Assembly (NCBI GenBank): GCA_017520185.1
Contig: JAFXGO010000029.1
Span: 1-64,000, forward strand
Origin: Elusimicrobiaceae bacterium
GTDB taxonomy: Bacteria; Elusimicrobiota; Elusimicrobia; Elusimicrobiales; Elusimicrobiaceae
Length of the DNA stretch: 64,000 nucleotides
Direction of reading: 5' to 3'
Under the pieces are notes generated by a model, which was not told the DNA's origin, searched no databases, and saw only the letters and a program-made list of their open reading frames with translations. Of this stretch, positions 42,033 to 43,960 are shown piece by piece; within the stretch, counting starts at the first letter, position 1, and each line of letters starts with the position of its first letter. The position numbers were made by a program, and so were the translations under genes.

Positions 42033-42352
42033 GGGTTTAAGAAAAAACCGTTTAAAGTGGGGTTTTTATTTTTTTCCTCTTTATATTCTTTTAAAAATTT
42101 TTTCCGGATAATGCGGCTTTCCTCTATATCATCCTCAAGAAACTTTTTATTTTCTTGAGAAAAAATAAGATTATACACCTCAGCCAGTTTTCCCAGCAGG
42201 CCTTCGTCTTCTACCACCAAAATCCCCTCACAAGCAGTTATATTTTTACAAAAAATTTCTGCCTGATAAAATATAAGATTTTCTAGCCAAATTTTATCCC
42301 TCCGCTTTAAATATTTCATATCAAACAGATCAAGACATTTCTTGCCATTCAT
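42026..42352 (-). CDS. Hypothetical charged protein
   Basis: A 108-residue protein with no signal peptide or membrane segment, rich in Lys, Glu and Asp, predicted mostly helical (EESRIIRKKFLKEYKEEKNKN near the C-terminus). The middle has GILVVEDEGLLGKLAEVYNLIF. I recognise no family and the start has no clear Shine-Dalgarno. It lies downstream of the minus-strand RNA at 42425-42681 on the same strand and could receive readthrough. It may be a genuine orphan gene; I cannot rule out a chance frame. Confidence 0.45.
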   Translation of the reverse strand: MNGKKCLDLFDMKYLKRRDKIWLENLIFYQAEIFCKNITACEGILVVEDEGLLGKLAEVYNLIFSQENKKFLEDDIEESRIIRKKFLKEYKEEKNKNPTLNGFFLNPK

Positions 42353-42424
42353 TAAAAATGGCGTAGACCAACCAACATAAAAACAAAATTTGTAGTAGTC
42401 GAGAAAATAAAATCATTTTTTGTG

Positions 42425-42497
42425 AAAAAAACTAACAGAGTTAGCAAAATGTTAAAAACAACTTAAGTTTTTTGATTACTTTTTTAACTTTGCTAAC
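42425..42497 (-). terminator. Terminator-like long hairpin of the minus-strand RNA
   Basis: Read on the minus strand, GTTAGCAAAG plus TTAAAAA pairs with TTTTTAAC plus TTTGCTAAC (about 17 bp, 2-nt bulge), then a small CTAAC/GTTAG hairpin leads into seven Ts (42425-42431). The inverted repeat may also be an operator. Confidence 0.6.
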
Positions 42498-42681
42498 TCA
42501 AGTCAGTTTTTATTTGGTAGAATAAGACCGCATAGATTCGGAAAAATTATGCGGTCGGGACGTTGGGAAAACAACATATCACTAGGCTATGATACCAGAG
42601 CAGAGCCCTGCTCTTTTCCCGCTCACACAAAGGAAGTGTCCGTCCGAAGATTAACAAAACGCATATATACTTGCCTTGTAT
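42425..42681 (-). ncRNA. Candidate structured non-coding RNA, divergent from the CI-like regulator
   Basis: A transcription unit without a plausible reading frame. Promoter and terminator are on the minus strand (see 42688-42717 and 42425-42497). Between them, several helices can be drawn (plus-strand coordinates): 42526-42534 with 42548-42556 (9 bp perfect), 42557-42562 with 42641-42645 as the closing stem, 42565-42571 with 42614-42620 (7 bp), 42577-42581 with 42590-42594, 42597-42603 with 42608-42614, and 42625-42628 with 42636-42639. This is a branched fold. It does not show tmRNA, RNase P, SRP or known riboswitch landmarks. Family unknown. Confidence 0.6.
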
Positions 42682-42708
42682 AATGTTAGCATAGTAAGTT
42701 TTGTTAAT
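42651..42708. promoter_or_regulatory. Perfect 10-bp inverted repeat, likely operator of the divergent region
   Basis: TTAACAAAAC (42651-42660) and GTTTTGTTAA (42699-42708) are exact reverse complements 38 nt apart. One arm lies inside the spacer of the minus-strand promoter. A TATAAT at 42679-42684 between the arms may be the plus-strand -10 for the regulator gene. I infer binding by the adjacent helix-turn-helix protein. Confidence 0.6.
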
Positions 42709-42717
42709 ATTTGTCAA
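42688..42717 (-). promoter_or_regulatory. Promoter of the minus-strand RNA
   Basis: Consensus -35 TTGACA (42712-42717), 18-nt spacer, -10 TATGCT (42688-42693). Confidence 0.68.
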
Positions 42718-42766
42718 GTTTTTCTTATTATTTCATTTTTTCCGCTATCTATATTTGGAGGAACAC

Positions 42767-43447
42767 ATGAATAAATTCGAAAAACAATTAGAAAAATGGA
42801 ACAACGGGGTCTTGCGTGGGGCACAAGCAAAGTTAGCAAAAAAACTAGGGGTATCCACCGCTACCACTGCATTATGGGCTACAGGAAAACGTCGCCCCTC
42901 CAAAGGATATGCCGCCCAAATAGCCACCCTGTTCAACATGGACATATATAATGTCTTTAAACTTTTTGAACCGCATAGCACCGTTTATCATATACCTTCA
43001 TCTGAAATGCAACATTGCTTACGTGAAAAAGACTTCGATTCTTCTTATTATGGGACAGATAACACAACGAATTACTCCCCTGCTCAAAGCAATAGTGTAC
43101 AGGTGCCTTTTTTTAATGCAATTCCCAAAGATTTCCCCCAATATAACGAAGATGAAGTGTTAGAATGGTGGAGCATTCCTCGCAGGTATGCATTGGGTAC
43201 AAAATATATTATTCCCTCCGTCAAGGCTGGGTTTCAAGGGGTATCTGAAACAGAAGACCTGTGTTTTATCAAACCCTGCTCGGAGACCTCTATCGGCAAT
43301 ACGGTTCTTTATCTTTTAGAAAACGGAAAATATGTCTACGGAAAAATAACGCAACAAAATACCATTGAAGGACTTTCGGAACAGCAAAAAAAACAAATCA
43401 AAAAAACCGTTGGCATTATCGTTCGTCGCATTTCAACCCCCGAATAA
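42767..43447 (+). CDS. CI-like transcription regulator (helix-turn-helix plus S24-like domain)
   Basis: A 226-residue protein. The N-terminus (AQAKLAKKLGVSTATTALWATGKRRPSKGYAAQIATLF, residues 18-57) is an XRE/CI-type helix-turn-helix. After a Ser/Asn-rich linker, residues 100-226 follow the beta-rich LexA/CI C-terminal pattern. The region where S24 peptidases have VxGDSM reads PSVKAGFQG, so no Ser-Met nucleophile is seen and self-cleavage looks lost; GKYVYGKIT is where the Lys region would be. GGAGGA lies 5 nt before the ATG. The gene sits between two candidate RNAs with an inverted repeat at its promoter. It could be a domesticated phage repressor. Confidence 0.78.
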   Translation: MNKFEKQLEKWNNGVLRGAQAKLAKKLGVSTATTALWATGKRRPSKGYAAQIATLFNMDIYNVFKLFEPHSTVYHIPSSEMQHCLREKDFDSSYYGTDNTTNYSPAQSNSVQVPFFNAIPKDFPQYNEDEVLEWWSIPRRYALGTKYIIPSVKAGFQGVSETEDLCFIKPCSETSIGNTVLYLLENGKYVYGKITQQNTIEGLSEQQKKQIKKTVGIIVRRISTPE

Positions 43448-43462
43448 CCCTTTTTTGACCCC

Positions 43463-43490
43463 TTGTTTTTTTTAGAAAAACAATTATACT
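43463..43490 (+). promoter_or_regulatory. Promoter of the 43.5-kb RNA
   Basis: -35 TTGTTT (43463-43468), 16-nt spacer, -10 TATACT (43485-43490). Start of transcription predicted near 43497. Confidence 0.65.
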
Positions 43491-43496
43491 GTTAGT

Positions 43497-43889
43497 ATCC
43501 TCAAAGAAGGGTTGGGGAATGTGGGACAGAAAATTGCAAACGGTGCCAGTCTTACCCAGTGATGTAAGGCGACAAAGAATGCACAAACTGATCGGGTCGT
43601 GCCGGTGGAGAGCGCGAAGAGCGCAGAAGCGTAAGTACACGGCTTTGAAACAGAAAAAATGTTCTTTTATTATGCAGGGAAGTGCTGAAAACAGAGTGGC
43701 CGGTTCACGCGCTCGAGTCCCGATCAATAGGGTCGGGGGTGCTTGAGATTTGGATCGGTGGTTTAGGCCTCTTTGCCAAGAACATGCCAACTGTTCTATG
43801 ACCCTGATTCCTACTCCAGAGGAAGGAAAAAAAATGATAGAGTCGACCTAGAGTCCTCCGCAAGCGGTATATGCGGAGGGCTCTTTTTT
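43497..43889 (+). ncRNA. Candidate large structured non-coding RNA (about 390 nt), family unknown
   Basis: A gene-free interval with its own promoter and strong terminator. Its ends pair: TCCTC (43498-43502) with GAGGA (43819-43823), and GGAAT (43516-43520) with ATTCC (43807-43811), continuing through GTGGGACA against the ATGACCC side with internal loops. Internal hairpins include CTTAC/GTAAG, GCGC-GAAGA-GCGC, an extended CTCGAG...CCCGATC/GGTCGGG...CTTGAG stem near 43711-43748, and AGAACA/TGTTCT. End pairing and size resemble housekeeping RNAs such as RNase P or 6S, but GAGGAAAGTCC-type RNase P motifs, tRNA-like tmRNA ends and the SRP tetraloop region are missing. It lies between the regulator gene and yggS. 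Confidence 0.68.
43850..43889 (+). terminator. Terminator of the 43.5-kb RNA
   Basis: AGAG-t-CCTCCGCA pairs with TGCGGAGG-g-CTCT, followed by six Ts. Confidence 0.93.
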
Positions 43890-43916: not shown

Positions 43917-43945
43917 TTGTGGATTTAAGTAAATTTTGATATAAT
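43917..43945 (+). promoter_or_regulatory. Promoter of yggS
   Basis: -35 TTGTGG (43917-43922), exactly 17 nt, -10 TATAAT (43940-43945). The first in-frame ATG of yggS (43946) would fall upstream of the transcription start. Confidence 0.78.
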
Positions 43946-43960
43946 ATGTCAAGGGTTTTT

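Follow-up and report, generated by a model that had tools for sequence, protein, structure and literature searches.

A podovirus-like gene transfer agent, FpGTA, was reported in 2026 in Faecalibacterium (PMC12946183); in the literature searched, no gene transfer agent was found described in Elusimicrobiota. The locus considered here resembles FpGTA and RcGTA in its association with an apparently vertically kept phage structural cluster that is under purifying selection and contains no integrase or replication genes, in its host-wide distribution, and in control genes that are partly unlinked from the structural cluster. It differs from both in belonging to another phylum, in having a CI-like repressor with a structured leader, and in being known here from genes alone. 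With lambdoid immunity regions, the locus shares an HTH plus S24 repressor, a divergent promoter with an operator-like sequence and, in half of the genus, phage late genes downstream. Unlike those regions, it has no Cro, integrase or replication genes and carries a long structured leader, and in contrast to lambdoid CI, the catalytic serine of the repressor is lost in most clades of the genus.

A further likeness is to tisB/istR of Escherichia coli, where the tisB mRNA is reported to need a structure far upstream of its start (PMC7708055). LexA-type control, a long structured leader and a membrane peptide of about 29 residues recur here; however, no antisense RNA was found, and the leader is also conserved where the peptide is missing. 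Dual-function RNAs such as RNAIII with hld and SgrS with sgrT combine a structured RNA with a tiny translated frame. The plus-strand RNA of the present locus, RNA+, is likewise a structured RNA with a tiny frame, but this frame has 5-6 codons, is free in sequence and is fixed in place, past the closing helix and with its stop at the base of the terminator. We know of no described RNA built in this way, with a tiny frame of fixed length and place and free sequence that ends at the terminator base.

Genomes and searches

The window, that is, the whole 64,000-nt stretch of DNA analysed, belongs to contig C29 of genome G000 (1.42 Mb, 95% complete). Relatives found through the regulator are gut MAGs of Elusimicrobiaceae/Candidatus Avelusimicrobium, including Candidatus Avelusimicrobium excrementipullorum. 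The genus set comprised 66 genomes, which were searched with the regulator, both RNAs and terL; the order set comprised 149 genomes from 19 genera, searched with the regulator, the portal gene and covariance models of RNA- (R1) and RNA+ (R2). Sixty-two loci with the regulator and its flanks were oriented, the window representing its own genome. The features are collected in Table 1.

Table 1. Positions of the repressor, the two RNAs, their associated elements and the structural cluster (window coordinates unless a contig is named)
Feature	Position	Strand	Remarks
c1, ~100 aa	42026..42352	-	~50 loci; inner start 42319 gives 97 aa
28-aa hydrophobic single-span peptide MILFSRLLQILFLCWLVYAIFNEWQEMS	42330..42416	-	place and type matched in at least 27 loci, two clades
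RNA-, probable structured 5' leader, ~265 nt	42417..42681	-	start estimated from promoter; folding z -6.1
Conserved leader element: covarying stem-loop, then TATTnTAGCAAATAAA and GTTAGCAAAGTTAA	42483..42560	-	62/62 loci
Leader promoter P- with conserved operator-like spacer CTTGACAAATATTAACAAAACTTACTATGCTAACA	42684..42718	-	kept across the genus, including the spacer
CI-like repressor	42767..43447	+	226 aa; HTH; S24-like C-terminal domain degenerate, GDSM serine missing
RNA+ promoter -10 box TATACT	43485..43490	+	kept as TATACT(at)nAGTA at almost all loci
RNA+, structured RNA, ~390 nt	43497..43889	+	start estimated from promoter; 60/61 loci with downstream sequence
RNA+ conserved core	43701..43793	+	from alignments; covariation in the group-B core
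Mini-ORF ATGATAGAGTCGACCTAG (MIEST), preceded by GAGGAAGGA	43834..43851	+	5 codons in the window
RNA+ terminator	43850..43889	+	hairpin plus U-run; base overlapped 2 nt by the mini-ORF stop codon
Podovirus-like structural cluster	G000:C8:154397-168599 (L166, L167)		adjoins a type II secretion/type IV pilus operon

The repressor and the leader promoter

The regulator gene proposed in the first-pass annotation was recovered as an ORF with an HTH, whose recognition region reads VSTATTALWATGKRRPSKGY. The window's protein matches HTH_3 (PF01381) below the cut-off (E 4e-4); its orthologues at L094, L109 and L144 match both HTH_3 and Peptidase_S24 above it, and these loci, together with other terminase-linked ones, have the GDSM motif. 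In the window copy the HTH is kept almost letter for letter and the GDSM catalytic serine is lost, so that induction there would not proceed by self-cleavage. Orthologues occur in 63 of the 66 genus genomes. Elsewhere in the order, weak matches alone were found, mostly to the HTH region, and IMG/VR yielded no relative of the regulator. Several genomes also encode paralogous HTH plus S24 regulators with a similar N-terminus (WNNGxLRGAxxxLA), which lie near integrases in prophage-like regions (L154-L161).

On the opposite strand, the promoter of RNA- has the boxes TTGACA and TATGCT at 42717-42688, and relatives keep a promoter/operator of about 35 nt, CTTGACAAAnnCTAACAAAACTTACTATRCTAACA. The pattern of spacer and -10 box fits a phage-type operator, to which the repressor would bind. 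The perfect 10-bp inverted repeat noted earlier across the divergent promoter region is present in the window (10-11 bp perfect; arms 42647-42660 and 42698-42711, 14 nt at 93%), but it is not kept in relatives and was rejected as the operator.

Genome G000 was scanned for the 23-nt spacer-plus--10 pattern with up to 3 mismatches, using the reversed pattern as a control. A single further site was found, at C2:8010-8032, and none with the reversed pattern. This site sits about 2.5 kb upstream of the terminase gene in another phage-like region, G000:C2:5000-16000 (L168), which encodes a terminase and portal-like genes, and the shared operator-like sequence hints at cross-regulation or shared immunity. 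Within the structural cluster of G000, neither the operator nor the RNA- leader element recurs.

RNA- and the genes behind it

Both flanking RNAs had been proposed from the window as structured, and both fold better than their dinucleotide shuffles (z -6.1 for RNA- and -2.6 for RNA+). In RNA-, a 78-nt element was found at every oriented locus (62/62); it lies on the strand opposite the regulator, at some 240-290 nt from the start of that gene. Its stem-loop shows changes on both sides at 8/8 pairs, with 94% of cells pairing, and the covariation score is 0.614 versus 0.322 for shuffles (0/500) and at most 0.16 for slid partners. In the order-wide scan, R1 matched in this genus only, at one place per genome, beside the regulator. 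Between the window and its nearest relative, G019, RNA- is 88% and RNA+ 86% identical, at a distance where synonymous sites of the neighbouring genes differ by about 62-74%. Against Rfam 15, neither RNA has a match above the gathering threshold or at a credible E-value, and the outcome that would have made either a housekeeping RNA did not arise.

Each RNA had been credited with its own promoter and terminator. Both promoters and the RNA+ terminator are borne out by the relatives; a terminator of RNA- is not, since most relatives have no U-run directly after the 3' hairpin. RNA- had looked terminated because the window itself has TTTTTTT directly after this hairpin. At nearly all loci checked, the gap before c1 contains no better promoter. 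Rather than standing alone on the minus strand, RNA- is most likely the structured 5' leader of an mRNA for the 28-aa membrane peptide and c1, which would be reached by read-through.

These two genes, together with the mini-ORF of RNA+, also qualify the initial statement that no coding frame occupies the gaps beside the regulator, although it remains true that RNAs flank the regulator on both sides. The peptide is hydrophobic, has 26-42 residues, and starts about 80-110 nt past the conserved leader element in the window's clade and in group B1, where the copies have a good Shine-Dalgarno sequence; it is absent from the directly terminase-linked clades. For c1, no Pfam or PHROG match was found. 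Its AlphaFold2 model (pLDDT 92) has the form helix-hairpin-long helix, and fold comparison of this model returned no match.

At some loci, a transporter gene with its own promoter-like TATAAT adjoining the start codon lies between the leader and c1. In the YfcC-like transporter gene c2 (L092, L098, L101 and others), TATAAT lies a few bases 5' of the ATG, a position that suggests a leaderless mRNA. A comparable placement is seen at yggS, the gene after RNA+ in the window, where the -10-like TATAATATG lies just ahead of or at the start codon (43930-43950), pointing to leaderless mRNAs in the genus. A-clade loci such as L110 and L111 have fast-changing secreted zinc-ribbon proteins (c12) between clpP and c1; the loci with these proteins are the window's closest relatives.

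RNA+ and its mini-ORF

Of the 16 pairs in two stacked helices of the group-B core of RNA+, 13 have changes at both partners (the structure string of R2 is one pair off relative to the one counted here), with a covariation score of 0.650 versus 0.345 for shuffles (0/500) and at most 0.28 for slid partners. Consensus folds of the subgroups agree on the core helices, and covariation thus supports helices in both RNAs. R2, which was made from group B and missed the window's clade, matched in this genus only, once per genome, and always beside the regulator except in G020. Identification of RNA+ as RNase P RNA or as tmRNA was ruled out by the genome's own copies of these RNAs, at C19 and C29:122035, respectively. 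A 6S model found no match anywhere in G000, and the same model misses 9 of 14 control genomes. RNA+ was also rejected as an antisense RNA of RNA-: there is no cognate complementarity, the mean duplex energy being -138.6 for cognate and -136.5 for non-cognate pairs.

Regulators in the genus keep both RNAs beside them (RNA- at 62/62 and RNA+ at 60/61 loci), and the adjacency of regulator, RNA- and RNA+ is not due to chance. The three parts are nevertheless separable. G020 retains RNA+ with its promoter, core, mini-ORF (MEKAIS) and terminator, whereas the regulator, RNA-, terL and portal are absent; conversely, G023 (locus L113) has lost RNA+ and kept the regulator, RNA-, TerL and portal. We read RNA+ as a structured RNA in its own right, present in single copy and separable from the repressor and leader, and the single module of the first-pass annotation should be split into these two units. 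We have high confidence in the anatomy and conservation of the three parts.

A mini-ORF of 5-6 codons is present at 58/60 scored loci. Its sequence takes 42 different forms, which encode 35 peptides, and each of the three stop codons is used; the count of loci is descriptive, because such frames were sought near the terminator and ten were placed by eye. As a control, 5.4% of 313 other ATGs in RNA+ bodies open a frame of 5-6 codons. At the tabulated loci, a purine-rich Shine-Dalgarno-like stretch is followed by the mini-ORF, whose stop codon lies at the base of the terminator hairpin. The distance from stop to stem is nearly constant across loci (in this tabulation, an inner ATG was used for three loci, and the frame picked at L100 is wrong). 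At L100, in G009, there is no mini-ORF; at L092, one is present by eye.

A length of 5-6 codons matches the stretch between the leading edge of a ribosome and the start codon in its P-site, and this agreement suggests that the mini-ORF is a ribosome landing site. The 3' end of RNA+ has the build of such a site: the closing helix is followed by the Shine-Dalgarno-like stretch, the start codon and another four or five codons, and the stop lies at the base of the terminator. With this layout, a ribosome that initiates or terminates there would lie next to the folded domain and would unzip the terminator hairpin. Our guess, prompted by this anatomy, is that RNA+ acts as a ribosome-coupled regulatory RNA at which a ribosome would dock. 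More specifically, and tentatively, since we give it less than an even chance, RNA+ may represent a new class of trans-acting RNA of about 390 nt, which would need an initiating ribosome, brought in by a genus-wide but sequence-free mini-ORF of 5-6 codons between closing helix and terminator, which has a domesticated phage's repressor and leader as its neighbours, and which can outlive that element.

The phage structural cluster

Comparison with the immunity regions of phages had been made at the outset, and it is strengthened by the relatives: a CI-like repressor and a divergent operator-like promoter occur in an arrangement that is genus-wide, with phage genes nearby in about half of the genus. 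Of 57 genomes with both regulator and terL, 26 have the two genes less than 6 kb apart, and the usual order at these loci is leader, (transporter), c1, terS, terL. In the window's clade the regulator and the cluster are not linked: relatives with long contigs have the cluster at a distance of about 72 kb, and in G000 it is on another contig. The G000 cluster encodes terS, terL, a portal/head-tail adaptor (phrog_332, E 2e-147), a protease-like protein and a major head protein, followed by two tail-tube proteins, an internal virion protein and a T7-like tail fibre; no integrase and no replication gene were found in it.

TerL is encoded in 59 and the portal in 62 of the 66 genus genomes, with frames intact in nearly all of them. 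Outside the genus, the portal search of the order gave two distant matches only. In the closest trio of genomes, dN/dS is 0.06-0.07 for the portal and 0.10-0.12 for yggS, ratios that are rough because synonymous sites are near saturation. TerL relatives in IMG/VR have 45-51% identity, and neither RNA is present in the 54 IMG/VR contigs scanned. From the pattern of presence and identity, the cluster has apparently been inherited vertically in the genus. Regulator, terL and portal are absent together from G020 and G034; as these absences may represent a single evolutionary event, the association is suggestive, short of statistical proof. In G009 (G009:C2:62000-80000, L177; L100), the trio and the structural cluster with its portal are kept, and terL was not found. 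Stop codons break the portal frame in G012, G028 and G031, which belong to one clade, a hint that the element is decaying in that clade.

Chromosomal structural and packaging genes throughout the genus, the lack of integrase and replication genes, and purifying selection in three genomes are features looked for in a gene transfer agent. We regard the cluster as a domesticated phage and a candidate gene transfer agent, known so far from its gene content. With moderate confidence, the repressor and leader would then be the control region of a gene-transfer-agent-like element.

Discussion

We favour, at a probability of roughly 0.55, a joint reading in which the control region of a gene-transfer-agent-like element lies beside a separate, ribosome-coupled regulatory RNA, RNA+. 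The CI-like repressor would bind the conserved operator overlapping the leader promoter. Once repression is lifted, transcription would pass through the 265-nt folded leader into the membrane peptide and c1; in roughly one half of the genus, the genes close by on the downstream side also include terS, terL and the structural genes. The folded leader would serve as a checkpoint after initiation, acting by attenuation/antitermination or by translational control.

If the module originally conceived is taken as one regulatory circuit, RNA- and RNA+ would act in trans, and the balance between them would be set by the repressor. The adjacency of all three parts throughout the genus while the genes beyond them change, and the conserved bases that both RNA promoters have beyond -35 and -10, agree with such a module. 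We consider it unlikely, given that RNA+ persists without repressor and RNA- in G020 and has alone been lost in G023, that RNA- has no conserved terminator, and that the two RNAs lack cognate complementarity. This last observation also bears on a type I toxin-antitoxin-like unit of the tisB/istR kind, in which a LexA-type repressor would control a leader mRNA for a membrane toxin of about 28 residues and RNA+ would be the antitoxin. Such a unit would account for the S24/HTH repressor with its long folded leader and for a hydrophobic peptide of 26-42 residues at a fixed place in two clades, and the tisB mRNA is likewise reported to depend on structure far upstream of its start (PMC7708055). The leader and RNA+ are, however, conserved in clades without the peptide, G023 keeps the peptide after losing RNA+, and RNA+ is not complementary to the leader, so that the toxin-antitoxin unit appears quite improbable.

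The position of the mini-ORF stop codon, at the terminator base at nearly all loci, so placed that a ribosome terminating on it would mask the 5' arm, invites the idea that RNA+ is a transcription attenuator, with a ribosome on the mini-ORF blocking the terminator and allowing read-through into the next gene, which in the window (yggS) is co-directional. The gene downstream of RNA+ is variable, though, and often convergent (minus-strand c3 and c11), which leaves attenuation without a common target, and yggS has a promoter-like sequence of its own just ahead of its start. We rejected RNA+ as a yggS attenuator on the ground that the downstream gene is not conserved, and we hold attenuation in general to be very unlikely. 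Equally doubtful is that the region consists of ordinary prophage remnants, the decaying immunity region and late genes of one old prophage with no present function. The phage-type genes, the unlinking of the parts, the interrupted portal frames of one clade and the missing terL of G009 are what decay would leave. Against it stand the retention of one copy per genome in over 90% of the genus, the low dN/dS of the portal, the covariation of the leader and the intact frames in nearly all genomes. The joint reading, an element's control region next to a separate RNA+, is the one to which we return.

The two structured RNA families are absent from Rfam, show covariation and are single-copy in some 60 species, and so represent additions to the catalogue. 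From their neighbourhood, a podovirus-like candidate for a gene transfer agent in Elusimicrobiota can be proposed, together with its likely control region. G020, G023 and G009 provide natural deletion mutants for testing how the parts depend on one another. For this genus, two RNA families not described before and a candidate gene-transfer system can now be put to the test.
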